Below are positions 7,404-63,182 of a stretch of DNA of 64,000 bases, piece by piece; positions within the stretch are counted from its first letter, which is position 1, and each line of letters starts with the position of its first letter. The position numbers and the translations under genes are program-made. Under the pieces are notes generated by a model. That model made no database searches, was not told the origin of the DNA, and was given only the letters and a program-made list of their open reading frames with translations. Source of the stretch: Varunaivibrio sulfuroxidans (GTDB taxonomy: Bacteria > Pseudomonadota > Alphaproteobacteria > Rhodospirillales > Magnetovibrionaceae); the NCBI RefSeq assembly GCF_029318635.1, contig NZ_CP119676.1:512614-576613 (forward strand), written 5' to 3'.

Positions 7404-7436
7404 GCCGCGCAACATCGCAGGAAATACCGTGCATTA

Positions 7437-21977: not shown

Positions 21978-22014
21978 AAAAAAAGGCCCCTCCAATTTGG
22001 AGGGGCCTTTTTTT
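21978..22014. terminator. Bidirectional intrinsic terminator
   Basis: A-tract, GGCCCCTCC stem, short loop, GGAGGGGCC stem and T-tract. It ends glnA transcription rightward and pap transcription leftward. The stem is GC-rich and perfectly paired. Confidence 0.93.
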
Positions 22015-31272: not shown

Positions 31273-31291
31273 CGGGACCGCCGTGAATTGA

Positions 31292-31410
31292 CTCCGACGT
31301 TTCGCTCCCGCGAACCATCGGGCCGACCACTATCTATCTTTTTGTTGCAGTTTGATTTCTTCACACATTTGTGTCCAATTGCATCGGACTCAAATGTTAA
31401 ACTCAAACCA
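31292..31410. repeat. 119-bp structured intergenic repeat, copy 1
   Basis: Begins 19 bp after the parE stop and ends 5 bp before the argC stop. A copy of the same length lies at 44266-44384, 17 bp after the ccdA stop. Shared blocks include TTTCGCTCCCGCGAACCATC and AAATGTTAAACTCAAACCA. The hairpin CACA-CATT-TGTG here is CACG-CATT-CGTG in the other copy, a compensatory change supporting a folded RNA. Confidence 0.75.
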
Positions 31411-31415
31411 CTAGG

Positions 31416-32486
31416 CTAGGGAAACAGCGGGGCCTGCATCAGGCCTTCCGTCTCGTCAAACCCATACATCACATTCATGTTTTGCACCGCCTGCCCCGAC
31501 GACCCTTTGACCAGATTGTCGATCACCGAAACGATGATCACCCGCCCCTCTTTGCGGTCCGCGAAGACGGCGATGTGAACATAGTTCGAGCCGCGCACAT
31601 GCTGCGTGGCCGGAGGCGGCGCCCCCCACGGCAAGACACGCACAAAAGGCTCGCCTCGATAATGCTCCGTCAGAGCTTCATGCACGGACTGGGGCGTTTC
31701 CCCCTCGCCCAAGGTGGCATAAATGGTCGCCAGGATACCCCGGCTCATCGGCGCCAAATGAGGCGTAAAGGTCACGGTGAGCGGCGCATTCGCGACCTGG
31801 GACAAGGCCTGCTCCATCTCCGGGGCATGGCGATGATGGGCGATGGCGTAAGCACTCAATCCTTCGCCCATTTCACCGTGTAGGAGGTTTTCTTTCGCCG
31901 AACGTCCTCCCCCCGTCGCCCCCGTCTTGGCGTCGATGATCACCGAACCGTCATCAATCAAACCACGCCCGACCAGCGGCAAAAGGGGAAGAAGCGCGGA
32001 TGTCGGGTAGCATCCCGGACAGGCGACCAGACGCGCAGATTTCAGCGCATCCCGAGAAAATTCGCTGAGGCCGTAAACCGCCTCCTTTTGAAGTTCCAAG
32101 GCTTGATGAGGGTGGCCGTACCATGTGGCGTACAGGTCCCCGTCACGAAGTCTAAAATCCGCAGAAAGGTCAACGATCTTCAAACGCGGATACCGGGCGA
32201 ATAAGTCCGCGACAACCTGTTGCGTTGTGCCGTGAGGAAGACAGCAGAAGGCCACATCGATGGTGGTGAAATCGATATCCTCCAACGCGCACAAATCGGG
32301 CAACCCCCGCCCATCGAGGTGTGGATAAACCGCGCCATATGGCAGTCCGGCCTTGCGATCGGCGCCAAGGGCCACGATTTCAACCCGAGGATGGCGCAAC
32401 AAAAGACGAACGGTCTCTTCTCCGGTGTACCCACTGGCGCCGATGATCGCGGCCTTGATGGAGGATGGTGAAAGCGGAGATGTCAT
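31416..32486 (-). CDS. argC: N-acetyl-gamma-glutamyl-phosphate reductase
   Basis: 356 aa from ATG 32486. Arginine biosynthesis: reduces N-acetylglutamyl-phosphate to the semialdehyde. NADP site AAIIGASGYTGEETVRLL; catalytic cysteine in ARLVACPGCYPTS; His in SAYAIAHHRHAPEMEQ. The open frame extends upstream to 32585 with poor sequence. It stands alone: the usual rpsI neighbour is not present. The 3' end abuts the structured repeat. Confidence 0.93.
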   Translation of the reverse strand: MTSPLSPSSIKAAIIGASGYTGEETVRLLLRHPRVEIVALGADRKAGLPYGAVYPHLDGRGLPDLCALEDIDFTTIDVAFCCLPHGTTQQVVADLFARYPRLKIVDLSADFRLRDGDLYATWYGHPHQALELQKEAVYGLSEFSRDALKSARLVACPGCYPTSALLPLLPLVGRGLIDDGSVIIDAKTGATGGGRSAKENLLHGEMGEGLSAYAIAHHRHAPEMEQALSQVANAPLTVTFTPHLAPMSRGILATIYATLGEGETPQSVHEALTEHYRGEPFVRVLPWGAPPPATQHVRGSNYVHIAVFADRKEGRVIIVSVIDNLVKGSSGQAVQNMNVMYGFDETEGLMQAPLFP

Positions 32487-32767
32487 CGCCTGATCCAGAT
32501 TACTGTCAACATATTGAAAAACAAAAAACGCCCGCGTGGGGCGTCTCGCAAAAAGAAACACAAAGCCCCTGCCGTTAAGACACACTCTCCTTCGTTCGCA
32601 GCGCCAACGTTCGCACAGTCATGGACAGGACCTTATTCAAAAAAACGGGGCGCACCCGATACGCACAGAACCCGCCGCGTTGAACATACACGAAGAAAAA
32701 AAAGAGCACAACGCCGTACGTATCTCCGCCCTCTGAGTTGCGCCCTCTGAATTCCATCCCTGAAATA

Positions 32768-33118
32768 TCAGGGCGAGTCCGCCGTTAATTTTTGGATGGT
32801 TTCGGCAAAAATATTCACGATGCTGCGAATGAACGGATCCGTTTTAGACAGCTTCTCCTCAAACATCTGTCGGGTAACCACGATCAGAACCGTGGGCTCG
32901 GTCGTGCGTGCGCTGGCGGCCCGAGGCGCGGTTCCGATCAGGGCCATTTCTCCAAACAAGGCGCCCTTACCCAACGTATCGCTGACCTTCCCGTTTTTAA
33001 TAATTTCAACGCCGCCCTGCTGGATGATGTAAGCGTTTTTCGCCTCTTCATCCTGAGTGTAAATTTGAGCGCCCTTGGCAAGATTACGCCGTTCTAAAAC
33101 TATATCGCCGTTTGACAT
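32768..33118 (-). CDS. Cyclic nucleotide-binding domain protein
   Basis: 116 aa, essentially a single cNMP-binding domain: EEAKNAYIIQQGGVEIIKNG and the phosphate-binding cassette LFGEMALIGTAPRAASA with the conserved Glu and Arg. No DNA-binding or enzymatic domain is attached, so it may act through a partner. Intact for its type. Confidence 0.82.
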   Translation of the reverse strand: MSNGDIVLERRNLAKGAQIYTQDEEAKNAYIIQQGGVEIIKNGKVSDTLGKGALFGEMALIGTAPRAASARTTEPTVLIVVTRQMFEEKLSKTDPFIRSIVNIFAETIQKLTADSP

Positions 33119-33243
33119 CTAGATATTCCTACAAAACACAAGCGGAGCGCTTTTGCGCGCCATCACTTCCCGGTTTTATTCCAACGGAACTTTGGGCGGG
33201 AATTTTTCAATAACCTTCAACGACCCTACGAGAAGAGTCTCTC

Positions 33244-33999
33244 CTAATACTTGACCCCCATCACCTGGGCGGCAATTTTCGCCACGATCCCCAATGCCTC
33301 ACGTCGCGGCGTCCCGGGTTTCAGGCGGGGATCGTATAAAACACGCAATAAGACTTTATCGCTATAACTTAAACGGGTCAGGTGATCGAGGTCGCTAAAA
33401 ATCGACGGGCGTAAATTGTTGCTGTCGTTGGGCAGACCCATGCTTTGCACCAATTCCTCCAAAAGACAACTGTCGATCAAGGCGTCCGGGGCCTCGACGT
33501 TGACAAAAATAAGGGCGCGAACAATCCTCTTTTCCGGCTTGCGATAGGCCAAAAAAAGACATCGTGCGTGAAGCATCTGAGCTTGAATGAAACGACTGTC
33601 TACGTTTTTTCCCTTAACGTTCATGATTTCCGCGCGCGTTAGAAAATACAGGCTGATCGCATTTGGGGTATTGGGCTTAACTTGCTTGAAACGTACGCCG
33701 GAAACACGCGTAATTTCCCGCAGATGACGCTCCACCGCCTTGATATAAAATGGCTTAATTCGACCGCTCAGAGAAATGCCGACAGGATTATCCTGCCATT
33801 TGGCGACAACCTTCGACGCCATCTCGGGGGACAACTCACTGGCAAAAACGATCGTGTTGAAGTATGAAACGATTTGACGAAGCGATGGGGACGCCGAATC
33901 GGCGCGCGCCAAGACCCCACCGGCGACAATCGCCGCCACGACAATTCCCCCAAACGCGACTTTCCGCGCCCTGCCCACCAGCATTCTCCTTTGCGTCAT
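33244..33999 (-). CDS. DUF2927-domain secreted protein
   Basis: 251 aa with an N-terminal signal or anchor segment (AFGGIVVAAIVAGGVLARAD). The body shows IVFASELSPEMASKVVAKW, ALIFVN and the LLEELVQSMGLPNDSN motif typical of DUF2927, a metalloprotease-like family. ATG 33999 is chosen; nearby in-frame ATGs at 34035 and 33984 are possible. Function unknown; periplasmic location inferred. Confidence 0.78.
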   Translation of the reverse strand: MTQRRMLVGRARKVAFGGIVVAAIVAGGVLARADSASPSLRQIVSYFNTIVFASELSPEMASKVVAKWQDNPVGISLSGRIKPFYIKAVERHLREITRVSGVRFKQVKPNTPNAISLYFLTRAEIMNVKGKNVDSRFIQAQMLHARCLFLAYRKPEKRIVRALIFVNVEAPDALIDSCLLEELVQSMGLPNDSNNLRPSIFSDLDHLTRLSYSDKVLLRVLYDPRLKPGTPRREALGIVAKIAAQVMGVKY

Positions 34000-34160
34000 C
34001 GTCCTTTGACCTATCACGCCACGGCAAATTATCACCTTGAAATTGACAAGGCACTTTGCAAGTCTCCGGCAGAGGTTGTAAGACTATGCTTCGTGTTGGC
34101 CTTTCAATACAGGAAAAAAAACGCCCAGAAACCCTTCTGGCATTGGATAGGTTTTGCGCC

Positions 34161-34727
34161 ATGACCTCCTCGATCTTGATTTCCATTATATGTCCGGACC
34201 GCGTCGGATTGTTGGCCGATCTCACGGGACGCCTATTCGACCTTGGAGCGAATTTAGGCGACGTCACTTTCGCCGTCTTGGGCGAAGGCGCTGAATTTAC
34301 CGGCGTTTGCTCTTTCTTCAATGGTATCGAACTCACGTCCCTAGAGGAGGAATTACGCGCCGTAGAAGGCCTGCAAGACGCCGAGATGACGCTGTCTCGG
34401 TTCACCTTGTCCCCCGTGCACGCCCCGAGCGGACGGATCACCCACCGCCTGGTGATCAGCGGCGGAGATCGTCCAGGATTGACGGCGCGTTTATGCGAGT
34501 TGTTTGTTCAATTCAAGGTCAATATCGTCCGCCTGAACGCCGAACACGTTCCCGATGGCGCAGATGGGCAATATGTCATTCGCATCGCGGCCAGCATTCC
34601 CACGCAATCCGTACAAAGCTGCTTGGCCGCCGTGGCCAATACGGCCGGCGAACTGGGGTTGAATTTTGAGTCCGGCGCAGCCGCGCAAGACCAGCTTTCA
34701 GGACCGACGCCCCAAGGGAAATCCTAG
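34161..34727 (+). CDS. ACT-domain protein, GcvR-like
   Basis: 188 aa consisting of two ACT domains: SIICPDRVGLLADLTGRLFD at the N-terminus and VISGGDRPGLTARLCELFVQ in the middle. This architecture matches the glycine cleavage repressor-like GcvR family, which senses glycine or acts by protein contact. Start ATG 34161 is the only one that begins directly at the first ACT strand. Possible target genes are not in the window. Confidence 0.82.
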   Translation: MTSSILISIICPDRVGLLADLTGRLFDLGANLGDVTFAVLGEGAEFTGVCSFFNGIELTSLEEELRAVEGLQDAEMTLSRFTLSPVHAPSGRITHRLVISGGDRPGLTARLCELFVQFKVNIVRLNAEHVPDGADGQYVIRIAASIPTQSVQSCLAAVANTAGELGLNFESGAAAQDQLSGPTPQGKS

Positions 34728-34764
34728 CCCCATCGGTACAAACGGGACCAGCCGTCGCCTACAA

Positions 34765-34830
34765 CCGAGAGTAAATTCGAGTGAGGCCGAGAGTAAATTC
34801 GAGTGAGGCCGAGAGTAAATTCGAGTGAGG
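34765..34830. repeat. 22-bp tandem repeat, three copies
   Basis: Three identical 22-bp units, each CCGAGAGTAAATTCGAGTGA plus GG, without spacers, between the ACT-domain gene and soxS. It is not a CRISPR because units abut without unique spacers. The period matches the two-copy repeat at 11442-11485 although the unit sequence differs. Confidence 0.95.
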
Positions 34831-34899
34831 AAAGAACGCCTCCCTCCCTTGAGAAACATGCCTGAATCGCGGAAAAGGCCGGCAATATCCTCCTTCAGG

Positions 34900-35340
34900 T
34901 TAGCACTTATGACGCCCCGAGTCCGCCTTGCCCCCTGGGCAGGACGCGTCAGCCGAGGTTTTTGCGACGGCGCCCCCGACGGGAACTTTTTTGACCAACT
35001 CGTCCAGGCGAACCCAGAAAAAACCTTCGCCCGGATAGCCGACGATACGTCCAACTTCCTTGCCATGTTCCACAGCGACGAACGTGGGCGTATACACAAC
35101 GCCTTTGATAAACGAGATATCCGAAGGCAACGGCGCCTCGGAATTCACGACGCGAAGAGGCAGGACCTTGGACTCGTCCGTCTTCGGATAGATCGGGGCG
35201 ATCTGATGATCCCACAGCTCGCAGTACGAACAGCCCTTACTGTGAAAATATACGAGTTCGGCGCCATTGGCCAAACCGACACGCCCGCCCAGTACAAGCA
35301 AGGCGAGCACAAATCCCGTGCGTGCGAACTTAAAAATCAT
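34900..35340 (-). CDS. soxS: Thioredoxin SoxS
   Basis: 146 aa from ATG 35340 (GAGGTGTTAT upstream). Signal sequence ARTGFVLALLVLGGRVGLAN; redox motif Cys37-Ser-Tyr-Cys40 in KGCSYCELWDHQIAPIY; cis-Pro loop YTPTFVAVEHGKEVGRIVGY, then PGEGFFWVRL. This pattern matches SoxS, the periplasmic thioredoxin that reactivates Sox proteins such as SoxYZ. It is read away from the other sox genes and is followed by the 22-bp repeat array. Confidence 0.88.
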   Translation of the reverse strand: MIFKFARTGFVLALLVLGGRVGLANGAELVYFHSKGCSYCELWDHQIAPIYPKTDESKVLPLRVVNSEAPLPSDISFIKGVVYTPTFVAVEHGKEVGRIVGYPGEGFFWVRLDELVKKVPVGGAVAKTSADASCPGGKADSGRHKC

Positions 35341-35569
35341 ATAACACCTCAAACAGACCCGGATCCAGATAATCATGATCAAGATTCAAAGAGGCCGCTC
35401 GGGTGTAAAAAAGAACTTACCCCGCACTTCGCCTCATGATGACGGGGCGCGATACTCTCAAAAAAAAGAAAAACATATCGCCCCCATCCCATTATGGTAC
35501 CCGGCCTTTTCGCAAAGGAAAAGACCGGGAAAACCACTAGACCTAGGCGGGAAATCCCCTAGAAGCGGG

Positions 35570-35791
35570 TCAATTTTTCTTGATGAGGTAGCGAAAAACG
35601 CCTCCATCTTCAGAGCTTTCGACCAATTCATTACCGGTTGAACGGCAAAAGGCCTCAAAATCTTTGACCGAACCCGGGTCGGTTGACAAAACCTCAAGGG
35701 TATCGCCGACCTTGAGGTCTTTAATTGATTTTTTGGTCTTCAAAATAGGCAACGGGCAGTTCATTCCTTTGGTGTCGAGTGTCGTCGTCAT
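35570..35791 (-). CDS. tusA: TusA-family sulfur carrier
   Basis: 73 aa. The sulfur-binding Cys12 lies in KGMNCPLPILKTKK, and VGDTLEVLSTDPGSVKDFEA is conserved. TusA proteins carry sulfane sulfur as persulfide, delivering it to tRNA modification or to sulfur oxidation. Here the neighbours dsrE2, soxT and soxS suggest the dissimilatory TusA type. An upstream 51-bp gap separates it from the ribbon-helix-helix gene. Confidence 0.93.
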   Translation of the reverse strand: MTTTLDTKGMNCPLPILKTKKSIKDLKVGDTLEVLSTDPGSVKDFEAFCRSTGNELVESSEDGGVFRYLIKKN

Positions 35792-35842
35792 AATAAAATT
35801 TCTCCCATTTTTTTAGTGTTCAAAAAACCACCACCGGCAGAT

Positions 35843-36142
35843 TCAATAACCGATGTTGATGTATTTCAGGCAAACCACCCGAAGGCAGGACGCCATGTTT
35901 TTCTGATTTGCAACCTGACAGTGATCGTAAATTCGCGTAACCAAACCGGCAACAGAAATACTTTCTTGACCCGCAAGTTCCTCAAGAACCGTCCAGAAGG
36001 CGCGTTCAAGGCGTATCGTTGTCGAGTGGCCGTGAATGCGCAAAGAGCGGCGCTCGGGCGTATACTCACGATCCTGATCGGCGACACAAAGCCCGAAAAG
36101 GTATGAAAGTGGCGATTGGGACTCCGCTTCCAATTTAGCCAT
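35843..36142 (-). CDS. Ribbon-helix-helix domain protein
   Basis: 99 aa from ATG 36142. The C-terminal part RSLRIHGHSTTIRLERAFWT VLEELAGQESISVAGLVTRI matches the RHH_4 type, in which a beta-strand precedes two helices. Its position within the sulfur cluster next to tusA suggests a regulatory role, but neither a partner nor an operator is known. The 51-bp distance to tusA suggests one transcript. The frame is open upstream to 36220 but a start there seems unlikely. Confidence 0.72.
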   Translation of the reverse strand: MAKLEAESQSPLSYLFGLCVADQDREYTPERRSLRIHGHSTTIRLERAFWTVLEELAGQESISVAGLVTRIYDHCQVANQKNMASCLRVVCLKYINIGY

Positions 36143-36505
36143 CGTTCGATGTGTCCTTAACAAATATCCCGGCGGACCAATGAATACGCCCGCACGCCGA
36201 TGAGGAAAGGAGACGCCCACTTTCCATTCTCAGGGACACCCCAGGATGTCGCCCCGAAGATGTCATGAAGGCAAATCCGCACCAACCTATATGGCTTGGT
36301 CGTCATTTTGCAATAAATTAGCGCGAACGTCCCCCTCTAGGCGCCACCCTTGTCCTATATTAATGACCGTGCGCCGGGCGGATTTTTTTAAGAGGGCCGG
36401 TTAAAACTCCGACGCCACGCGCGCCCGGTCGGTACAGCAGAACCAGGGCGGAACAAAAGAAAAGGCCACACAGGGGAAGCGGACGCCCCCCGCCGGGGAC
36501 GCTAA
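36143..36505. other. Intergenic region
   Basis: 363 bp between dsrE2 and the RHH gene on the minus strand. No convincing ORF, terminator or repeat was seen. It presumably holds the promoter for the RHH-tusA unit. Confidence 0.4.
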
Positions 36506-37006
36506 TCAGATGTACAAATTAACATCGGAATCCAGAGCCTTTTCCATAAAGGTCGCGGCTCCGCCAAGCTCCATCTCCGGGATCATGTCATCCTTGTTCC
36601 ACTCGAATAAATCCAGTGTCATCTGACAACCGATGATTTTGACATCGCATTCAACGGCCATGTCACGCAGTTCAGGAATCGACGCAACCCCTTTTTTCTT
36701 GGTCAGGTTACGCATCATCGACGAGGCTATCGCATCGACGCCGGGAATGGCGGAAACGATGTTAGGCATCGTCATGTGCATCCCCATGATGGGCATTTCC
36801 ATGGCCGGGTTCCCCAGCGTGGATATCTGTAAATGGCTGAGATCTTTTTTGAGCAATTGCAGCCCATAAAAAGTGAAGAACAAAGTCACATCGACGTCCA
36901 TGCTGGCGGCGGTTGTCGCCAGGATAAACGGCGGGTAGGCCCAGTCCAAGGTCCCCTTCGTGACAATGATCGACATCTTTTTGGTGTTTTCACCGCTATT
37001 TGACAT
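36506..37006 (-). CDS. DsrE2-family sulfur-transfer protein
   Basis: 166 aa from ATG 37006. DsrE/DsrF/DrsH-like fold: KMSIIVTKGTLDWAYPPFILAT, then FFTFYGLQLLKKDLSHL, and the conserved cysteine in VKIIGCQMTLDLF. DsrE2 proteins work with TusA and rhodanese in cytoplasmic sulfur trafficking during sulfur oxidation. Divergent from soxT across a 516-bp regulatory gap. The cysteine is present, so it should be able to carry persulfide. Confidence 0.87.
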   Translation of the reverse strand: MSNSGENTKKMSIIVTKGTLDWAYPPFILATTAASMDVDVTLFFTFYGLQLLKKDLSHLQISTLGNPAMEMPIMGMHMTMPNIVSAIPGVDAIASSMMRNLTKKKGVASIPELRDMAVECDVKIIGCQMTLDLFEWNKDDMIPEMELGGAATFMEKALDSDVNLYI

Positions 37007-37522
37007 TGTTTCTTCCCTATTAAAAATATGCCAACTCATCAACATACGTCGATTTAAGAGTTTAGCGTTTTCTTATATAACCCCAATCTAACGTACCTCA
37101 AATTCCCAATGGTAGTACTCAGTGCCTACGCATCACGATTTCAGGTACCCCCATTGCATATCCAGAGCCGCGGAGAAGACATTCCGACAAGGAAAACACC
37201 CCACACGCTTCGCTAAACTACGGTGGGGCGTGCCTGCGTAAACAATCTCAACGCCTTGTTATAAAAGTTAAAATTCGGAGGGAACCCCCAATAGTAGGGA
37301 AAACCCCAATTCACGAATTATAACGGCGTGATAGGTTTAGCCGCAGCGAAGGCGTTAGTGGACTCTAATTTAGTATAATCTTTTAATACACTAAAGCATT
37401 AGCTTGAAAAATTCGTTCATGCGGCCTCGCCAATAGATCAAGACGTACAAAATTGCGTTCGCGGGACGCTTGAGCGCCAAAAAAATAGAAAAAAACATAT
37501 CGATCAAACAAGGGATGGTGAA
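37007..37522. promoter_or_regulatory. dsrE2-soxT divergent regulatory region
   Basis: 516 bp. A perfect -10 TATAAT at 37374-37379 is flanked by two CTAA/TTAG dyads, CTAATTTAG (37365-37373) and CTAAAGCATTAG (37391-37402). The motif TAGGGAAAACCCC at 37295-37307 recurs, reversed, upstream of soxX. TACCCCC at 37145 resembles it. Together these suggest control by the ArsR-type repressor of this locus plus another factor; binding is inferred. Confidence 0.55.
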
Positions 37523-38626
37523 ATGGAAGCGATGAGTGTAGGGACGATTGTGTCCACCTTCGGGTTGTTGGCCGGAGTTGTCTTCGGCGCCACGGCCAAT
37601 AAAACAAATTTCTGCACCATGGGGGGCGTATCCGACATGGTGCTGATGGGGGACAAAGGCCGTTTCCGGTCGTGGATGCTGGCGATTGCCGTCGCGATTA
37701 TTGGAACCCAGACGCTTCACGTTCTCGGGTACATTGACATTTATAAATCGATCTATCTGACCAGTAATTTCGGTTGGCTCGGCGCAATTGTCGGCGGGCT
37801 GATGTTTGGCTACGGCATGACCCTGGCCGGTGGATGCGCCGGGAAAAACCTGATTCGTGTCGGTGGTGGGAATTTAAAATCTCTGATCGTGGTCCTCGTC
37901 ATGGGGGTTTTCGCTTATATGACCTTACGCGGATTGATCGGCATGGGGCGCGTCCAGATGGAGGCCGCAGCCAACGTCGATCTGACCGGCGTCGGCCTGC
38001 AAAGCCAAGGAATGGTGGATATCATAGCAAAATTGGTTGGCGTGCAGCCCGATTCCATCCGGGTTGCAATTACCGCGATTTTCGCCGGGGCATTGTTGAT
38101 TTACTGCTTCAAGGATCGTAAATTCCGCGGCGAACCGCTTAATATTTCGGCGGGCGTCATCATTGGCCTCCTAACCCCGATCGGTTGGTACATCACCGGG
38201 GTCATGGGATACGATGATTTCGAACCGACACAACTGGCCTCGTTCACCTTCGTCGCGCCCTCCGGCGACAGCCTTCAGTACCTGATGACGTTTTCCGGCG
38301 CGACGATCAATTTCGGCATCGCCACCGTCGGTGGGGTCATACTGGGTTCGTTTTTGGCCGCGATCGCAAGTAAATCCTTTCACATCGAGGGGTTTTCCAC
38401 AACGCCGGACATGATCGGACATTTGTTTGGCGCCGCCATGATGGGAACCGGCGGCGTGTTGGCCCTGGGTTGCACGATCGGCCAAGGAATTACGGGCATG
38501 TCCACCCTGGCCGTCGGCTCGTTGATCGCCTTATCGTCGATCATCATGGGTGCGGTCATCTCGTTAAAACGCATGGAGGAAGGGTCTTTCAGTGGTGCTT
38601 TCAGGGCAATTTTCGCCGCCGGCTGA
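37523..38626 (+). CDS. soxT: SoxT-like YeeE/YedE sulfur transporter
   Basis: 367 aa with nine or more membrane helices. Conserved cysteine signatures GGCAGKNLIRVGGG near residue 110 and LGCTIGQGITGMS near residue 316 are those of YeeE/YedE (TsuA-like) transporters that pass thiosulfate or sulfane sulfur across the membrane. In Sox loci this family is called SoxT. AGGGATGG precedes the ATG. Followed by a terminator, so probably monocistronic. Confidence 0.87.
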   Translation: MEAMSVGTIVSTFGLLAGVVFGATANKTNFCTMGGVSDMVLMGDKGRFRSWMLAIAVAIIGTQTLHVLGYIDIYKSIYLTSNFGWLGAIVGGLMFGYGMTLAGGCAGKNLIRVGGGNLKSLIVVLVMGVFAYMTLRGLIGMGRVQMEAAANVDLTGVGLQSQGMVDIIAKLVGVQPDSIRVAITAIFAGALLIYCFKDRKFRGEPLNISAGVIIGLLTPIGWYITGVMGYDDFEPTQLASFTFVAPSGDSLQYLMTFSGATINFGIATVGGVILGSFLAAIASKSFHIEGFSTTPDMIGHLFGAAMMGTGGVLALGCTIGQGITGMSTLAVGSLIALSSIIMGAVISLKRMEEGSFSGAFRAIFAAG

Positions 38627-39386
38627 CCGACGAGCTTTCCTCGCCTATCTTCTCGGGCGCGCGCAAACGGCGCGCCTCAGTCCACGCAAACCTCGCCATG
38701 ATTATGGCGAGGTTTGTCATTTTACAAGACAAAGACCGATAATAAGAATAAATCCCGGGATCGCCATTGCGCCCCCCCTCTTAATGTTCCCCTTGAGCGT
38801 CCTCCGGTTGCGCGCGTCATCGAGAAGGAGGCTTTTTGTTTTGCCGCCAGCTTCCTGGCTTCGGCTCCGTTAAGCGCGCGCCTTTGCGCCTAAAAAATCG
38901 AAACATCGACCATATCCCTAGTAAATCCCCCTGTACAAATAGGGGTTTTCCCTAATTGTCTATAGCCATTCGCAGAGATAATGTTATCTTCATCTAATAA
39001 AAGGAATTTCGCATCAATGCGATCCATAAAAAATCCTTTAAAAGGCCTGGGAGGCCGAGGCGTTAAATTGGGATGATGGGAAAAATATCTCCGAAAACTC
39101 GTGTGTGGGGCGACTGCGTTAGATAAACGCGGCGGGACCCTTTGATGGCGACGTCGCGCTTGAGTTCTAGTACACAGTTAAGGTTGTATCCTCATCCGTC
39201 TATTTTATGCATAAGCAATACCCCTGGGGTTGTCTGATCTTTTGACAATACACCAATAAAGGGTTTGCAACTCCGTACGGTCGATAAATCAGCGCACATA
39301 GATGCGTATTGTCGGCAAGCTCCCCGCAAGTGGAGGCGTTCCCTGCGGGAAACAACGACTAAGACCTTTTTTAAAAGGGAGGGACA
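38627..39386 (+). promoter_or_regulatory. Long soxX upstream region
   Basis: 760 bp without a convincing gene. It starts with the soxT terminator (38688-38721). TAGGGGTTTTCCCTA (38940-38954) is the reverse complement of a motif upstream of soxT. A weak promoter is TTGTCT (38956) with TAATGT (38979) inside the dyad AGATAA/TTATCT (38976-38989), followed by a CTAAT half-site at 38994. The TTGACA at 39242 has no good -10. CCCCTGGGG lies at 39220-39228. The long leader suggests complex control of sox expression. Confidence 0.5.
38688..38721 (+). terminator. Intrinsic terminator after soxT
   Basis: AAACCTCGCCAT at 38688-38699 pairs with ATGGCGAGGTTT at 38704-38715, a four-base loop, followed by TGTCATTTT. 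Confidence 0.82.
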
Positions 39387-39842
39387 ATGAAGACCTTAAA
39401 AATTTTTGTCGCCACCATGGGATTCGCATTGATGGGATCCACGGCGTACGCCGCGCAGGTAACCGCCCCCAACGATGTTGTGATTAAGGACGATACCGTC
39501 CCACAATCGCTAACCGGCGTTGCCGGGGACCCTATCCGTGGCCGTAAAATCGTAATCAACCGAAAAAAGGGGAATTGTCTGGCGTGCCACGACATCAAGG
39601 ATATTCCCGAGCAACCCTTTCACGGACAAACCGGGCCTGCACTGGAACACATTCCCGAGCATCATAGCGTCGCCGAAATGCGCATGCGTCTCGTCGATTC
39701 TAAGATGATTAACCCAGCGACCATGATGCCCAGTTTTTACAAATTGGGCCAATATCGCGTTCTCAAGGGCTTTCGAGGGAAAACCGTTTTGTCGGCGCAA
39801 GATGTGGAAGACGTCATCGCCTACATGATGACCTTAAAGTAA
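39387..39842 (+). CDS. soxX: Cytochrome c SoxX
   Basis: 151 aa with a Sec signal (MKTLKIFVATMGFALMGSTAYA). Single heme site Cys64-Leu-Ala-Cys67-His68, with a probable distal Met ligand in the NPATMMPSFY segment. SoxX pairs with SoxA to attach thiosulfate to SoxY. GGGAGGG lies before the ATG. First gene of soxXYZA. Confidence 0.95.
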   Translation: MKTLKIFVATMGFALMGSTAYAAQVTAPNDVVIKDDTVPQSLTGVAGDPIRGRKIVINRKKGNCLACHDIKDIPEQPFHGQTGPALEHIPEHHSVAEMRMRLVDSKMINPATMMPSFYKLGQYRVLKGFRGKTVLSAQDVEDVIAYMMTLK

Positions 39843-39876
39843 CGGAAGTTTTTCCGAAAAATCGAAGAGGAACGAA

Positions 39877-40359
39877 ATGAATAACCAACCACAAAAAATA
39901 ATTGATACAGGACGGCGCAACGCCTTGAAGGCGGCGGGCGTAGGCGTGCTGGCGATCGCCGGGGCTTCCCTAACGGCGAATGTCGCCCAGGCCACCCCCG
40001 AGGAAGTGGCCACGGCATTGGCCAAGCTGACTGGTGGGGTTACGCCCCAGTCGGGTAAAATCACCTTAAAGCTGCCCGAAATCGCAGAGAACGGCGCCAG
40101 CGTTCCGGTGACCCTCATCGTCGATAGCCCGATGACCGCGGACAACTACGTCAAACAAATTCACTTATTGGCGGAAGGCAATCCAACCCCCGAAGTCGTC
40201 AGCTTCTACCTGACCCCGGCGGCGGGAAAAGCCGACATCTCGACGCGCATGCGCCTGGGACAAACCCAAAAGGTCGTTGCCGCCGCCGTTATGAGCGACG
40301 GCTCCGTCTACTCCACAAGCAAAGAAGTCAAAGTCACCATCGGCGGCTGCGGCGGCTGA
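39877..40359 (+). CDS. soxY: Sulfur carrier SoxY
   Basis: 160 aa. Tat-type signal (TGRRNALKAAGVGVLAIAG) and the carrier tail VTIGGCGG, where Cys158 holds the sulfur intermediate. The remaining beta-sandwich (KITLKLPEIAENGASVPVTL) is typical. Encoded 34 bp after soxX and 34 bp before soxZ, with which it forms a heterodimer. Confidence 0.96.
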   Translation: MNNQPQKIIDTGRRNALKAAGVGVLAIAGASLTANVAQATPEEVATALAKLTGGVTPQSGKITLKLPEIAENGASVPVTLIVDSPMTADNYVKQIHLLAEGNPTPEVVSFYLTPAAGKADISTRMRLGQTQKVVAAAVMSDGSVYSTSKEVKVTIGGCGG

Positions 40360-40393
40360 GTGTAAAGATCGTTTTTTACAGGAGAAACCAATA

Positions 40394-40720
40394 ATGGCTA
40401 CCAAACCGCCGCGCGTTAAAGTCCCCAAAACGGCGAAAAAAGGGGAAGTTTTTGAAATCAAAACGTTGATTACCCATCCCATGGAAACCGGGAATCGCAA
40501 GGGAAAAGACGGCAAAAAAATTCCGCGCATGATCATCAATAAATTTACCTGCACCTATAACGGGAACGAGATTTTGCGCGCCGATATGAACACGTCCATC
40601 TCCGCCAACCCCTACTTCGCGTTTTATGCAAGGGCCACGGACAGCGGCACGTTCGAGTTCGCATGGACAGACGATAACGGGAAAACCGTAAAAACAAGTA
40701 AAAATATCGCTGTTTCTTAA
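40394..40720 (+). CDS. soxZ: SoxZ
   Basis: 108 aa with no signal peptide; it is exported with SoxY. KPPRVKVPKTAKKGEVFEIK and LITHPMETGNRKGKDGK are family signatures. It binds SoxY and keeps the carrier arm presented to SoxAX and SoxB. Confidence 0.96.
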   Translation: MATKPPRVKVPKTAKKGEVFEIKTLITHPMETGNRKGKDGKKIPRMIINKFTCTYNGNEILRADMNTSISANPYFAFYARATDSGTFEFAWTDDNGKTVKTSKNIAVS

Positions 40721-40749
40721 GGGGGTATAACCAAGGGAGGTTATCAAAA

Positions 40750-41538
40750 ATGAATATTAAACTTACCGGGGTTATCATCACACTGGGTATGGGGGCTCTG
40801 CTGGCCGGCTGCACGGGGGGGGATTCGAATCCTGATGCTTGGTCCGGCTATAAAACGGCAACGCCTGAAACACGCGCCATGCAAGACGATGATTTTTCCA
40901 ACCCCGCCATGCCATGGGTTGACCTGGCTTCAGAAAACTGGACCAAAGTCGAGGGAGAGGCGGGAAAGTCCTGCGCATCGTGTCACGGCGACGTGAAAAG
41001 CATGAAAGGCGTCGGCGCCCGTTATCCCGTGTACGACAAGGAAACGAAGAAGCCGATCAATATAGAATTGCGCATCAATAAGTGCCGTACGGAAAAGATG
41101 AAGGCCAAGCCTTATAAATACGAATCCGACGAACTGCTCGGCATGACGGCGCTAATCCGCATGCAGTCGCGCGGCATGCCGGTGGTCTCGACCGCAGCCA
41201 ACGAAAACGATCCTTTGCATCAGGCTTGGCTCAAAGGCAAAGAATTTTACTACAAACGCCGCGGACAGCTCGACATGGCGTGCAGCAATTGCCACGAAGA
41301 CCATGCCGGTCAATATATTCGCGCCGAACTGCTTTCTCAGGGACAGTCGAATGGTTTTCCGACCTACCGTCTAAAATGGCAAAAAATCGGATCTCTAGAC
41401 CGGCGTTTCCGGGGCTGCAACAAAAATATCCGCGCACAACCTTACGGCTATGGTTCGGATGAATATCTCAATCTCGAAACCTATTTGGCTTGGCGTGGTC
41501 GAGGCCTTAAGGTCGAGACACCTTCCGTTCGGAAGTAG
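40750..41538 (+). CDS. soxA: Diheme cytochrome SoxA, predicted lipoprotein
   Basis: 262 aa. Two heme motifs, Cys75-Ala-Ser-Cys78-His79 and Cys178-Ser-Asn-Cys181-His182, plus Cys223 in RGCNKN, the likely persulfide heme ligand. SoxA with SoxX oxidatively couples thiosulfate to SoxY. The N-terminus GMGALLAGC is a lipobox with Cys21, so it may be membrane-anchored; most SoxA proteins have a simple cleaved signal. Encoded 29 bp after soxZ and followed by a terminator-like hairpin before soxB. Confidence 0.93.
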   Translation: MNIKLTGVIITLGMGALLAGCTGGDSNPDAWSGYKTATPETRAMQDDDFSNPAMPWVDLASENWTKVEGEAGKSCASCHGDVKSMKGVGARYPVYDKETKKPINIELRINKCRTEKMKAKPYKYESDELLGMTALIRMQSRGMPVVSTAANENDPLHQAWLKGKEFYYKRRGQLDMACSNCHEDHAGQYIRAELLSQGQSNGFPTYRLKWQKIGSLDRRFRGCNKNIRAQPYGYGSDEYLNLETYLAWRGRGLKVETPSVRK

Positions 41539-41550
41539 CCAAATTTACTC

Positions 41551-41592
41551 AAAAAGGGGTGGCCTTGGCCTTGGCCCATGCCGCCCCTTTTT
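41551..41592 (+). terminator. Attenuator-like hairpin between soxA and soxB
   Basis: AAAAAGGGG at 41551 pairs with CCCCTTTTT near 41584-41592, extended by GGC/GCC pairs. The T-tract follows the right arm. It should reduce but not fully stop read-through into soxB, 139 bp further on. Confidence 0.6.
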
Positions 41593-41730
41593 CTCAATTT
41601 ATTCTTTTTTATTTTTCACCGAGACACGCATCACAACAAAATGGAATAGGCAAAGGGGGTCCCGCCCCATTTTGGCGGTTAATTTGCTTCCGCCAAACGG
41701 TTTATCCCTAACGGAGAAACGGAAAACAAC

Positions 41731-43422
41731 ATGCTCACCCGCCGAGATTTCATGCAAATAACCGCCGCGACCGCAGCCCTGCTTGGGCCCACGGGGTGTT
41801 CCTCGCTAGGGCGCGCCGCCGCCGGACAAAAAATTACCCAGGAGAAACTTCTTCAGTTCGATCCCGTCGGGCAGGTCACGTTGCTGAATTTCACCGATAT
41901 CCACGCCCAATTGGTGCCCTTATATTTCCGTGAGCCATCCACCAATTTAGGCGTCGGTAAATCCGCCGGCATCCCCCCGCACCTGACGGGGAAAGATTTT
42001 CTGAACTATTTCAAACTTCGCGCCGGAACGATGGATGCCTACGCCTTCACCAGCGACGATTATGTCTCCCTGGCTCGACAATACGGACGCGTCGGCGGCT
42101 TGGCGCATATGGCGACCTTAATCAAGGCTATCCGCGCCGAACGCCCGGACAACACGGTTCTGATCGACTGCGGCGATACCTGGCAGGGTTCTTACGGATC
42201 ATTAAAATCTCGCGGCGAGGATATGGTCACGGCGATGAACGCCCTGGGTGTCGATGTCATGGTCCCCCATTGGGAATTCACCTATGGTGAGGACCGCGTC
42301 AAGGAGTTGATCAAAAAACTGAAATTCCCCTTCCTAGCGGGTAACGTCAAGGATAACGAATGGCAAGAACGCGTGTTTGATTCGATCGCTTATTTCGAAC
42401 GTTCCGGCGTCAAGGTCGCGGTTATCGGACAGGCCTTCCCTTATACGCCGATCGCCAACCCGCGCTACATGGTCCCCGACTGGTCGTTCGGCATTAATGA
42501 AGATATGATTGTCGAAAATATCGCCGAGGCTAAATCCAATGGAGCCGACCTAATCGTTCTCGCCTCGCATAACGGCTTTGACGTCGATCGCAAACTGGCC
42601 GGCCGCGTGGAAGGCATCGACGTCATCCTGACCGGCCACACCCACGACGCCATTCCCGCCTTGGTCAAGGTCAAAGACACCCTGCTCGTCGCCGCCGGAT
42701 CGCACGGCAAGTTCTTGGCGCGACTGGATTTGGACGTTCAGGGTAAAAAAATCGTCAACCACAGCTTCAAAATGATCCCCATTCTCTCCGACGCCATCGC
42801 CCCCGACCCGGAAATCGCCGCCGTCGTCCGCGACGTACGCGCACCGTATCTAAAAGACATTTCCGAAATTCTCGGCCGTACGGACTCGCTGTTGTACCGT
42901 CGGGGCAATTTCAACGGCAGCTTCGATGATTTGATCTGCCAAGCCATTCGTCAGGAACGCGACACCCAGATTGCCCTTTCGCCGGGATTTCGTTGGGGGG
43001 CGACGCTTCTGCCCGGACAGGCCATCACCACCGACGATCTGTTTTCACAAACCGCGATCACCTATCCCAACTGCTACCGTCAGGAAATGACGGGGGCGCG
43101 TCTGAAAACGATATTGGAAGACGTCGCCGACAATCTGTTCAATGCAGATCCCTACTACCAACAAGGCGGCGATATGGTTCGCGTCGGCGGTATGGGCTAC
43201 GCCATCGATATTTCGAAAACAATCGGAAACCGGATCAGCGAAATGACCCTGCTGGACACCGGAGAGCAGATCGACGCGAAGAAGACATATACCGTCGGCG
43301 GATGGGCGTCGGTCAACCCAGGCACCGAAGGGCCGCCGATCTACGATGTCGTTTCCGATTATATTCGTCGCAAAAAAGTTGTTTCGGTTCCGCAAAACAA
43401 TACGATCAAAGTCACGATATAG
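41731..43422 (+). CDS. soxB: Thiosulfohydrolase SoxB
   Basis: 563 aa. Tat signal TRRDFMQITAATAALLG. Metallophosphatase-like metal motifs NFTDIHAQL, IDCGDTWQGS and GHTHDAIP are present, and WGATLLPGQAIT then C-terminal 5'-nucleotidase region follow. SoxB hydrolyses sulfate from cysteine S-thiosulfonate on SoxY using a dimanganese site. Complete in length. Separated from soxA by 192 bp carrying a hairpin, so it may be expressed at a different level. Confidence 0.95.
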   Translation: MLTRRDFMQITAATAALLGPTGCSSLGRAAAGQKITQEKLLQFDPVGQVTLLNFTDIHAQLVPLYFREPSTNLGVGKSAGIPPHLTGKDFLNYFKLRAGTMDAYAFTSDDYVSLARQYGRVGGLAHMATLIKAIRAERPDNTVLIDCGDTWQGSYGSLKSRGEDMVTAMNALGVDVMVPHWEFTYGEDRVKELIKKLKFPFLAGNVKDNEWQERVFDSIAYFERSGVKVAVIGQAFPYTPIANPRYMVPDWSFGINEDMIVENIAEAKSNGADLIVLASHNGFDVDRKLAGRVEGIDVILTGHTHDAIPALVKVKDTLLVAAGSHGKFLARLDLDVQGKKIVNHSFKMIPILSDAIAPDPEIAAVVRDVRAPYLKDISEILGRTDSLLYRRGNFNGSFDDLICQAIRQERDTQIALSPGFRWGATLLPGQAITTDDLFSQTAITYPNCYRQEMTGARLKTILEDVADNLFNADPYYQQGGDMVRVGGMGYAIDISKTIGNRISEMTLLDTGEQIDAKKTYTVGGWASVNPGTEGPPIYDVVSDYIRRKKVVSVPQNNTIKVTI

Positions 43423-43504
43423 GGCGCCTTTCCACGCGTCGGGGTAGGCATGCCGGTTGAAAAACGTAAGGTCGTTCAGCCGCCAAAGAAATTCAGGATA
43501 ACTT

Positions 43505-44248
43505 ATGGACCCGTTTAACATTAGCTACTTAGGCGCATTTACCGCTGGAATTCTGAGCTTCGTGTCCCCATGCGTCCTTCCCTTGATTCCGGCGTATCTT
43601 TGTTTCCTTGGAGGTTCCACCCTCGACGAATTAACCGCAAAGGATGGAATCAACAAGGCGGTTCAGCGTAAGGTCTTTCTTTCCGCCCTCTTTTTCGTAC
43701 TTGGCTTTTCCTCCGTTTTTGTCGCCCTGGGCGCAACAGCGACGACATTGAGCGCCGTCCTCGCCGAGAACATGGGGGTTCTATCCAAGTTCGGGGGGGT
43801 GGTCATTATCATCTTTGGCTTGCACTACATGGGTATTTTCAAAATTGGTTTTCTCAATTTTGAAAAGCGGGTCCATATCCAAAACAAACCTTCGGGATTT
43901 TTCGGGTCTTATGTTTTGGGTCTGGCCTTCGCCTTCGGTTGGACACCCTGCGTTGGCCCTATTCTGGCGACGATATTAATGGTCGCGGCGGGAAGCGATT
44001 CGGTATGGTTCGGTGTTCGCTTGCTCGCGGTTTACGCCGCCGGCATCGGCATTCCTTTCTTGCTGGCGGCCTTCGCGGTCAAACCCTTCATGACGTTCAT
44101 GGGACGCTTCCGTCGCCACCTGCACAAGGTGGAAATCGCCATTGGCGTTTTATTGATCCTAACCGGCATCGCCATTTTCACGGGCTCTCTAGCCGACGCT
44201 TCGCAATGGATTTTGGAAACCTTCCCCAGCCTGGGCGAACAAGGTTAA
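43505..44248 (+). CDS. soxV: CcdA-type thiol transporter (SoxV)
   Basis: 247 aa, six membrane helices. Redox cysteines lie in FVSPCVLPLIPAYL near residue 25 and GWTPCVGPILATI near residue 145. CcdA/SoxV passes electrons from cytoplasmic thioredoxin to periplasmic thioredoxins such as SoxW. Its position next to soxB and soxW supports SoxV; CcdA for cytochrome c maturation is the alternative name. Confidence 0.9.
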   Translation: MDPFNISYLGAFTAGILSFVSPCVLPLIPAYLCFLGGSTLDELTAKDGINKAVQRKVFLSALFFVLGFSSVFVALGATATTLSAVLAENMGVLSKFGGVVIIIFGLHYMGIFKIGFLNFEKRVHIQNKPSGFFGSYVLGLAFAFGWTPCVGPILATILMVAAGSDSVWFGVRLLAVYAAGIGIPFLLAAFAVKPFMTFMGRFRRHLHKVEIAIGVLLILTGIAIFTGSLADASQWILETFPSLGEQG

Positions 44249-44265
44249 CTAGGCCGGGGGACCGG

Positions 44266-44384
44266 CTCCGGCGTTTCGCTCCCGCGAACCATCGGGCCGA
44301 CCCCTGCCTCTCTTTTTATTGCGGTTTGATTTCTTCACGCATTCGTGTCCAATGGCGTCGGACGCAAATGTTAAACTCAAACCA
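44266..44384. repeat. 119-bp structured intergenic repeat, copy 2
   Basis: Lies 17 bp after the ccdA stop and just left of MITE copy 2. It matches 31292-31410 in order and length; the CACG-CATT-CGTG hairpin here pairs with compensatory changes relative to copy 1. GTCC...GGAC is kept in both copies. Confidence 0.75.
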
Positions 44385-44394
44385 CCGAGACCTA

Positions 44395-44659
44395 GGGTCA
44401 GGACCTCTTAATCTGATCCGTCTGGCGAAGACGAGTTTAAGTGTGGGTTAGGCGGAAAATCCGCCGCAATGGCCCTCATTGCAAGGGTTTTCCAGCGACA
44501 TCCGCGCTTAAACCCATCCCGTCCCGCGGGGATTTGTGAAAAATGCCCCAGGAACGTCGTCGAAGACTTTTGAAAGTGAACGGCACTTCCGGCAAGTCTT
44601 CTCCTCGGCTTGTGACATTTTTCACAAACCAGACGCACCAGATGAATAGGTCCTGACCC
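44395..44659. mobile_element. MITE-like element, copy 2
   Basis: 265 bp, the same length as copy 1 and about nine in ten positions identical by eye. The left end begins TAGGGTCAGGACCTCTTAAT after a TA (44393-44394); the right end GGTCCTGACCC is followed by TG rather than TA, and the two ends no longer match perfectly, so this copy looks older or has decayed. It is inserted between the convergent ccdA and soxW genes, directly after the 119-bp repeat. Confidence 0.8.
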
Positions 44660-44688
44660 TGAGGTGCGACCTTCCTTTTGTGCGTGCG

Positions 44689-46833: not shown

Positions 46834-47748
46834 ATGATGATCTACCTTCCTATAGCTAAAATCTCCGTCAATATTTTTGTTATTTTAGGCATGGGTGGGG
46901 GCGTTGGCCTGTTATCCGGCCTGTTCGGCGTCGGCGGAGGTTTTTTAATCACCCCTTTGTTGATTTTCATCGGCATTCCCTCCGCCGTCGCTGTGGCGAC
47001 CGGGGCCAATCAAATCGTGGCGGCCTCCGTGTCCGGCGTCCTCGCGCACTGGAAACGCGGTAATGTCGATCTCAAGATGGGGATTATTTTGCTGGTTGGC
47101 GGCGTGATCGGCTCAACCCTGGGCGTTTGGCTGTTCACCTTCTTAAAATCGTTGGGTCAAATTGACCTCGTCATCAAATTGTCTTATGTCGTTTTTCTCG
47201 GCATCATCGGGGGATTGATGCTTGTCGAAAGCATCAACGCCATGATGCGCAAAAAGAATGCGGGGGCGGGAAAACGCCATCATCACACCTGGATTCATGG
47301 ACTGCCCTTCAAGACCCGGTTTCGTCGTTCGCGCCTGTATATCAGCGCCATTCTCCCCTTCATAATCGGCATCATCGTCGGCGTTCTTTCGGCAATCATG
47401 GGGGTCGGTGGCGGCTTCGTCATGGTTCCGGCGATGATATATCTTCTTGGCATGCCGACGTCGATCGTCATTGGGACATCGCTTTTTCAGATCATTTTTG
47501 TTACCGGCAACGTCACCATCTTGCAAGCCGTTAACAATTACGCAGTGGACGTCGTCCTGGCGTTGCTGCTGCTGGTCGGTGGGGTCATCGGCGCCCAATT
47601 TGGCGCCCGGCTCGGCGCCAAATTGCATGGCGAACAGCTCCGCGTTCTTTTGGCGTTACTGGTTGTCGCCGTCTGCGCAAAGATGGCCTATGGCCTGATC
47701 GCCACGCCCGAAGACGTCTATTCCTTGGCGATGTTGGGCGGAAATTAA
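46834..47748 (+). CDS. TauE/SafE-family anion exporter, copy 1
   Basis: 304 aa with eight or so membrane helices in two repeats: GGGVGLLSGLFGVGGGFLITPL near the start and GVLSAIMGVGGGFVMVPAMIYLL in the second half. The family exports sulfite, sulfoacetate or related anions. In a Sox locus a sulfite or sulfane-sulfur export role is likely. A 304-aa paralogue follows with very high similarity. Confidence 0.9.
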   Translation: MMIYLPIAKISVNIFVILGMGGGVGLLSGLFGVGGGFLITPLLIFIGIPSAVAVATGANQIVAASVSGVLAHWKRGNVDLKMGIILLVGGVIGSTLGVWLFTFLKSLGQIDLVIKLSYVVFLGIIGGLMLVESINAMMRKKNAGAGKRHHHTWIHGLPFKTRFRRSRLYISAILPFIIGIIVGVLSAIMGVGGGFVMVPAMIYLLGMPTSIVIGTSLFQIIFVTGNVTILQAVNNYAVDVVLALLLLVGGVIGAQFGARLGAKLHGEQLRVLLALLVVAVCAKMAYGLIATPEDVYSLAMLGGN

Positions 47749-48096: not shown

Positions 48097-49011
48097 ATGC
48101 AAATTTACCTCCCCATCGCCGAAGTCTCAGTGAACATCTTTTTAATCTTAGGCATGGGGGGCGGCGTGGGCTTCCTCTCCGGTCTTTTTGGTGTTGGCGG
48201 CGGCTTCTTGATGACTCCCTTGCTGATCTTTATCGGCATTCCCCCCGCGGTCGCCGTAGCCACGGAAGCCAACCAGATTGTAGCGTCGTCCGTGTCCGGG
48301 GTTCTCGCCCACTGGAAACGGGGCAATGTCGATGTCAAAATGGGGGTCATGCTGCTGATCGGCGGCGTCATCGGCTCTACTTTGGGCGTTTGGCTGTTCA
48401 CAATCCTCAAGGAACTCGGGCAGATCGATCTGGTCATTAAGGTCTCGTATGTCGTTTTCCTGGGAATCATCGGATCGGTTATGTTCGTCGAAAGTCTGAG
48501 GACGATGATGCATCGCCAGAAGCAAGCCGCTCCCAGGCGCAGGGTGCACAACTGGATGCATGGGCTGCCCTTGAAGATGCGTTTCCATCGTTCGCGTCTA
48601 TATATCAGCGTGATTCCGACTCTCATGATCGGCGTCGTCGTCGGCATCTTGTCTGCGATCATGGGGGTTGGCGGTGGATTCATCATGGTTCCGGCGATGA
48701 TTTATCTGCTCGGCATGCCTACGGCGGTCGTCGTGGGAACATCGCTTTTTCAGATTATTTTCGTCACCGCCAATGTCACCATCTTGCAGGCCGTCAATAA
48801 CTTTGCCGTTGATGTCGTCTTGGCGCTGCTCTTGCTTGCCGGCGGCGTGATCGGCGCCCAGTTTGGCGCCAAGGCCGGTGCGAAACTGCATGGCGAACAG
48901 CTTCGCGTTCTCCTTGCCGTAATGGTTCTTGGGGTTTGCGGAAAAATCGGTTTCGATCTTCTCATCACCCCAGTTGATGTTTTTTCAATCGGCCCCGTTG
49001 GAGGTCACTAA
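48097..49011 (+). CDS. TauE/SafE-family anion exporter, copy 2
   Basis: 304 aa, same length as copy 1 and very similar along its length (GVGFLSGLFGVGGGFLMTPL; GILSAIMGVGGGFIMVPAM). Tandem duplication including the leader is evident. Differences are concentrated in the central hydrophilic loop (HRQKQAAPRRRVHN versus KKNAGAGKRHHHT). The downstream TIGR02186 gene starts 4 bp later, so the two are co-transcribed. Confidence 0.9.
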   Translation: MQIYLPIAEVSVNIFLILGMGGGVGFLSGLFGVGGGFLMTPLLIFIGIPPAVAVATEANQIVASSVSGVLAHWKRGNVDVKMGVMLLIGGVIGSTLGVWLFTILKELGQIDLVIKVSYVVFLGIIGSVMFVESLRTMMHRQKQAAPRRRVHNWMHGLPLKMRFHRSRLYISVIPTLMIGVVVGILSAIMGVGGGFIMVPAMIYLLGMPTAVVVGTSLFQIIFVTANVTILQAVNNFAVDVVLALLLLAGGVIGAQFGAKAGAKLHGEQLRVLLAVMVLGVCGKIGFDLLITPVDVFSIGPVGGH

Positions 49012-62900: not shown

Positions 62901-62934
62901 CAAAAACATGGCCGCCACCCCTATACGGCGGCCG
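62901..62934 (-). terminator. Riboswitch expression-platform terminator
   Basis: On the minus strand GGCCGCC (62927-62933) pairs with GGCGGCC (62910-62916), followed by ATGTTTTTG. It lies between the riboswitch and the cbiM Shine-Dalgarno, so ligand binding could end transcription. Confidence 0.72.
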
Positions 62935-62939
62935 GCTAA

Positions 62940-63132
62940 AACCATGGCAGGTCTCCTGGCTCACGGATCATCGCGAGGCCCTTCCCCTTCCCGGCGAAAA
63001 ATCGCCAGTGGGTTTACGAAAGGCCGCTACCGTTCACAGTTGCGGGGGCAGCCACGGATCGGGACCCGTCGAGGTCTTCCCTACCGTGTTCCCTTTTCAT
63101 CTCACGGGCTTTGCCCTTGAGAAACCAATGGT
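62940..63132 (-). ncRNA. Cobalamin riboswitch
   Basis: The minus strand carries the B12 box AGCCAGGAGACCTGCC at 62961-62946, together with CCCACTGG and GCCCCCGCAACTGTGA-type core segments at 63070-63000. Adenosylcobalamin binding should turn off cbiM through the downstream terminator. Confidence 0.93.
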
Positions 63133-63182
63133 CATTATTGTCTATCAGAGTTCATCGCGCGCGGCAACGCCCAGCCCATGAA

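Follow-up and report, generated by a model that had tools for sequence, protein, structure and literature searches.

A CTAG-flanked double-hairpin repeat of Varunaivibrio sulfuroxidans: a probable MITE that often lies at amber stop codons

ERIC elements form one long imperfect palindrome and duplicate TA on insertion, and the insertion sequence IS630 reportedly prefers CTAG as its target (a preference said to have been described by Tenzen and Ohtsubo in 1991). In the available passages, the enterobacterial ERIC element is described as intergenic, with a palindromic fold and with reported effects on transcripts at the 3' ends of genes (PMC10969869). MITEPsy1 of Pseudomonas syringae is, in the parts of the source available, a non-coding element of about 100 nt that duplicates 4 nt (CTAG or YTAA); the ends of its copies are identical, its distribution is restricted, and its likely parent is ISPsy2, of the IS5 family (PMC3189936). 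REPINs and BIMEs with RAYT are described, in the passages available, as mobile units of two inverted palindromes that lie outside genes, carry a tetranucleotide at their feet and undergo compensatory changes (PMC3116915, PMC6006769).

The repeat examined here, from the single-contig genome of V. sulfuroxidans (3,066,297 bp), resembles each of these in part. Its likeness to MITEPsy1 covers the approximate size, the lack of coding capacity, the identical copy ends, the restricted distribution and a probable 4-nt duplication at CTAG. MITEPsy1 differs in having 18-nt terminal repeats with unrelated letters, and the available parts of its description mention neither two-hairpin covariation nor placement at stop codons, both of which are found here (PMC3189936). 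MITEPsy1 also has a likely partner, according to the same partial source, whereas the partner search described below yielded none among three Pfam families. The palindromic fold and intergenic position recall ERIC, and the size is similar to the 127 bp listed for ERIC; unlike ERIC, the present element targets the 4-bp CTAG, has two hairpins and matches no Rfam family. As judged from listings and passages of the literature, no description of this family, or of elements associated with both CTAG and stop codons, was found.

The starting point was the window, i.e. the whole 64-kb stretch of DNA analysed, in which the initial annotation placed a 119-bp repeat at 31292-31410 and 44266-44384. Sequence comparison confirms both copies, which are 90% identical; the window contains two instances of a 30-base core for which shuffles predict none. 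The distances of 19 and 17 bp from the preceding plus-strand stop codons also hold for these 119-bp boundaries. The boundaries themselves are too narrow. When the flanks are aligned, the similarity between copies ends with CTAGTGGATCGA at one end and with CTAG at the opposite one, so that the full unit is 135 nt long including CTAG at each end (CTAG-TGG...CCA-CTAG); about 127 bp lie between the two tetranucleotides, and the 119-bp repeat is the interior. Both termini carry CTAGTGGWTYGA in inverted orientation, a short repeat that is imperfect past 7 bp. Coordinates are collected in Table 1.

Table 1. Positions in the window of the two element copies and of the features associated with them.
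Feature	Position	Strand	Basis or detail
Copy 1 of the 135-nt element	31280..31414	- (best-folding strand)	aligned flanks; covariance model, 154.8 bits
Hairpin I of copy 1	31347..31411	-	outer stem GTGGTTTGA/TCAAACTGC
Inner stem of hairpin I of copy 1 (position of the whole hairpin)	31347..31411	-	ACATTTG.GTCCGAT/ATTGGAC.CAAATGT
Hairpin II of copy 1	31283..31330	-	consensus GTGGTCGG.CCGATG..TCGC/GCGA..CGTCGG.GTCGATCCAC
Terminal CTAG of copy 1 (target tetranucleotide)	31411..31414	.	aligned flanks
TAG stop of minus-strand gene (presumably argC)	31416..31418	-	1 bp past copy 1
Copy 2, older diverged subfamily-A copy	44254..44388	-	flanks; covariance model, 144.8 bits
Hairpin I of copy 2	44321..44385	-	fold and alignment
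Hairpin II of copy 2	44257..44304	-	foot still paired after a double change of T-A into G-C (GTGG/CCAC, here GGGG/CCCC)

Copy 1 sits between convergent genes, of which the plus-strand neighbour was annotated as parE and the minus-strand neighbour is one that we take to be argC; the stop codon of the latter falls within an extra CTAG at 31416-31419. The core of copy 1 equals the consensus, and its 119 bp are 100% identical to at least 18 other copies among the blastn matches listed. Its left 12 bases are degenerate, which weakens the foot of hairpin II. Copy 2 begins 5 bp past the stop codon of a plus-strand gene, previously annotated as ccdA.

A search of the whole genome for further copies found many. 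With copy 1 as the query, blastn gave at least 42 matches (40 of 63 candidates scored), and the first 19 listed, the window copy counted in, are 100% identical over 119 bp. A covariance model gave at least 56 matches at 111 bits or more, followed by weaker ones (150 of 1778 candidates scored). These 56 comprise 55 full-length copies of what is here called subfamily A (including those at 165859 and 2895644) and one copy without hairpin II. About 10 older or partial copies lie beyond them, which brings the total to more than 60. The diverged subfamily B has a unit of 136 nt and is present as 8 copies or fragments; a few partial forms exist besides. Fifteen copies are identical across all 135 bases, which implies a recent burst. 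The element is non-coding; its consensus amounts to only 45 codons, too short for an enzyme, and thus has no room for a transposase gene. Two short deletion forms, L103 (near 1484-1525) and L100 (near 1486-1550), retain little beyond one hairpin, with the CTAG end preserved on at least one side. A left end without a right end, as would signal an autonomous parent, was not seen in the loci examined except in two deletion forms.

CTAG flanks the element on both sides in 42 of the 55 full-length subfamily-A copies, and a single copy has ATAG on both sides. Filled and empty sites were sought with 10 flank pairs taken from two related genomes (G047 and G063) that carry 121-nt members of the family. 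Four pairs had an empty orthologue, three were apparently filled in both genomes, as judged by spacing, and three had no orthologue in the list. In all four filled/empty pairs the empty site holds a single 4-mer (CTAG, CGAG, CTGG and CTAG) and the filled site two, and the net gain at each is the element plus 4 bp. A clean duplication of CTAG is seen in one of the four only (L187/L193; CTAG when empty, CTAG/CTAG when filled). At L184/L194 the empty CGAG corresponds to CGAG/CTAG when filled; the empty 4-mer matches one side only, contrary to what simple duplication would give. For the remaining two pairs (empty CTGG with filled CTAG/CTAG, and empty CTAG with filled CGCG/CTGG), a duplication requires later base changes. 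The two ends also differ in how often they vary. On the folding strand, the 3'-side 4-mer alone is altered in 8 of the 55 subfamily-A copies, compared with 1 of 55 for the 5'-side 4-mer; the corresponding counts in subfamily B are 3 and 0, and lone end changes are even in the relatives (2 and 2 among 18 rows). Plain duplication accounts neither for the uneven variation in V. sulfuroxidans nor for the CGAG site.

Taken as a whole, the element is short, present in many copies, devoid of a transposase gene and bounded by terminal inverted repeats. It is probably a non-autonomous transposon of the MITE type with a REPIN-like double hairpin, inserted with a 4-bp CTAG duplication by an IS5-like transposase acting in trans. 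It would then be a new MITE family; its double-hairpin fold is real and conserved. A puzzling intergenic repeat is thereby accounted for as a mobile element. The transposase supplied in trans would recognise the inverted ends TGGWTYGA, which form the feet of the two hairpins, and would place the element in the palindromic 4-bp target CTAG, so that a CTAG remains on either side. As has been proposed for MITEPsy1 and ISPsy2, the enzyme is probably a DDE transposase that works by cut and paste and duplicates 4 bp.

No autonomous partner with matching ends was found among the families PF01609, PF13358 and PF01797 in the V. sulfuroxidans genome. PF01609 (DDE_Tnp_1) is represented there by one broken gene, and PF13358 by one IS630 copy. 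As is reported for IS630, the present element targets CTAG, and the V. sulfuroxidans IS630 copy itself sits in CTAG; unlike it, the element ends in GTGGWTYGA, where the IS630 copy has GAGCATTTCCCG. This copy, the one IS630-type transposase locus found, lies near 0.907 Mb of the genome (L136, 964-2035), and its transposase is split over two ORFs.

The minus-strand consensus folds into two hairpins, one starting from each terminal CTAG, with an energy of -57.6 kcal/mol and a z-score of -8.6; the z-score of the opposite strand is -4.9. Of 42 distinct V. sulfuroxidans copies, 41 fold more stably on the minus strand; the 42 are mostly near-identical subfamily-A copies and not independent. In the relatives, the scored strand, which had been picked by the model, is the more stable in 12 of 16 distinct copies, and seven relatives folded singly gave z-scores from -5.0 to -11.6. 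A structure with compensatory changes had been proposed from the two window copies, and this is borne out, albeit in two longer hairpins and not in the CACA/TGTG helix originally singled out. The letters of the change from CACA/TGTG to CACG/CGTG are indeed present, but covariation beyond chance is not: the four-pair helix shows one double change in 35 distinct copies, a count matched by 310 of 500 shuffles, so that this helix gives no structural evidence.

Across the 42 pairs of the two longer hairpins, comparison of the A and B consensus sequences finds 21 pairs unchanged, 7 still paired after one change, 7 still paired after two and 7 broken in B. Three rows were left out of this comparison and of the within-copy counts given below, and hairpin II of L169 was masked. 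The covariation alignments were fitted to the structure and are hence biased in its favour. In an 11-row set, 9 pairs are doubly changed, compared with a shuffled mean of 7.7 (149 of 500 shuffles), which is not above the shuffles, but the cells and the score are above them. Once relatives are added, 20 of 42 pairs are doubly changed against a shuffled mean of 13.5 (0 of 500), with 101 cells against 42 in shuffles and 10-35 in slid versions; further pair types are less clear-cut (34 of 500 shuffles). Among 47 model-aligned rows, which include two antisense matches and two copies that are misaligned in part, 17 pairs are changed on both sides, compared with a shuffled mean of 6.4 and with 6-11 in slid versions. 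Alignment A7 consists of 23 author-selected loci; from alignment A2, two of 37 distinct rows (L089:1533 and L027:1365) and the copy without hairpin II were dropped. The fold is thus kept while the letters change, both within one genome and across genera.

Changes within individual copies tell less in favour of pairing. In subfamily A, Watson-Crick pairs turned into G-U 18 times and into A-C 12 times; in subfamily B the counts are 7 and 6. Kept pairing is not clearly favoured. With G-U and A-C so nearly equal, individual copies look nearly free of constraint, and it is apparently the moving lineage that maintains the hairpins, not the host at each site.

The double hairpin raises the possibility, which we consider unlikely, that the element is of the REPIN/REP type, with inverted palindromes and tetranucleotide feet, moved as single-stranded DNA by an HUH (Y1) TnpA-REP or an IS200/IS605 enzyme. 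This would agree with two inverted hairpins that have CTAG at each outer foot, with the better folding of one strand in nearly all distinct V. sulfuroxidans copies and with the greater variability of the end 4-mer on one side in this genome; one filled/empty pair also fits one target-borne plus one element-borne tetranucleotide. In the passages available, compensatory changes are common in REPINs (PMC3116915), and atypical feet are known in the superfamily, e.g. CnGA for class 3 (PMC6006769). Against such an origin stands the absence of Y1_Tnp (PF01797) matches in the V. sulfuroxidans genome, in a search that was positive in 5 of 14 control genomes. IS200/IS605 elements are described, in the same partial source, as inserting into the lagging-strand template (PMC6006769). 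From the GC skew of the fetched loci (table read by eye), replication would start near 2.05 Mb and end near 0.51 Mb, and orientation relative to replication is unbiased (26 of 56 copies, p 0.79), which argues against this lagging-strand mechanism. Most REPs described in the available parts of the literature carry GTAG/GTGG (or CGTC), not CTAG (PMC3116915, PMC6006769), one copy here has ATAG on both sides, and, unlike REPINs with RAYT, insertions add 4 bp. The tag differs and the expected enzyme was not detected in the V. sulfuroxidans genome, so that the element resembles REPINs in shape only, and a Y1/REP mechanism is less likely than a DDE-type MITE.

It is also improbable, in our estimation, that the folded single strand itself is needed, with a CTAG-specific element being copied or inserted via structured RNA or single-stranded DNA by an enzyme other than known DDE partners and Y1 transposases. 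If this were true, the harmless splitting of amber stops would have turned dozens of gene 3' ends into a shared structured module.

The position of the copies relative to genes can be understood from the target. Using a simple codon-based gene caller trained on the window, a terminal CTAG supplies the TAG stop of a called gene in 25 of 55 subfamily-A copies; a further copy, L112, was left uncounted, since its CTAG holds a stop codon only if the boundary is moved by one base. With the folding strand as reference, the stop codon is at the 5' end of the element in 15 cases and at the 3' end in 11, one copy having both. For comparison, 12 of 64 other non-coding CTAG sites in the fetched V. sulfuroxidans loci are stop codons (Fisher p 0.003), as are 3 of 19 within the window (p 0.03). 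A Pfam scan of 10 of the 26 stop-codon genes found domains in nine (e.g. DsbA, residues 5-196 of 198), so that the gene ends look real and not like truncations. In tandem contexts, 17 copies are sense and 10 antisense to the genes.

Copies lie just 3' of stop codons because the target CTAG often holds an amber TAG and, since CTAG is left on both sides of the insert, the stop codon is kept. With orientation free, the choice of target together with selection against other sites offers the best explanation of the position. Insertion within coding DNA would be harmful, but where C precedes an amber stop, the resulting CTAG could be interrupted at no cost, since TAG is regained from the second CTAG; copies would thus accumulate right behind stop codons. 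Amber stops would then be safe landing sites for a CTAG-seeking element, a simple and testable rule for where the repeat is found, and one that accounts for an apparent 3'-end element without assuming regulation. The initial suggestion of a mobile or regulatory 3'-end element holds in its first part; a dedicated regulatory role at 3' ends is unsupported, given the occurrence in both orientations.

The same placement, together with the strong one-strand fold and the pairing retained through double changes, could be taken to indicate a conserved host RNA element at mRNA 3' ends (a terminator, stabiliser or processing site) that may have spread by being useful. We regard this as very unlikely, as the copies at stop codons and in tandem contexts occur in both gene orientations, the 15 identical copies imply a recent burst, and G-U is not clearly favoured over A-C. 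No intrinsic terminator was called at copy 1, the only copy scanned. The initial annotation had noted that no protein-coding feature explains the structure; nor does an Rfam family, as the repeat had no match at the gathering score in a scan of the window, in which only a cobalamin riboswitch and a tRNA were found. That chance or segmental duplication, instead of a mobile element, produced the repeats has next to no probability and is already refuted, since nothing beyond the two window copies speaks for it and dozens of copies share ends but differ in their flanks, with empty sites found as well.

The covariance model built from subfamilies A and B matches 8 of 120 genomes at E 0.01 or better, V. 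sulfuroxidans included; these represent six genera and three families, and two of the eight matches are weak (E 0.003 and 0.0006). Matches in related genomes of three families make a search for the partner enzyme feasible. Blastn with the consensus detected the A type, at the DNA level, in 1 of 199 genomes, namely V. sulfuroxidans itself. An exact 23-base subfamily-A pattern had no occurrence in a public collection of genome contigs, from which the V. sulfuroxidans genome is perhaps absent, and a relative's copy had no match in a plasmid collection.

A second repeat in the window (7435-7702 and 44393-44660; 268 bp, 91.8% identical) has inverted ends GGTCAGGACC..GGTCCTGACC adjoining CTAG. It is often a neighbour or host of the 135-nt element, and one site within it is occupied by that element in both orientations in the V. 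sulfuroxidans genome. The second repeat is probably another MITE with the same target. Its two ends, directly joined, apparently make up a short palindrome found in L126 around 1710-1750, CTAG-GGTCGGGACCTATTCGAATAGGTCCCGACC-CTAG. Elsewhere in the window, two 845-bp stretches (46840-47684 and 48103-48947; 75% identical) are probably tandem paralogous genes, a near-perfect palindrome of 37 bp lies at 21978-22014, and the Rfam cobalamin riboswitch occupies 62929-63145 on the minus strand (117 bits).
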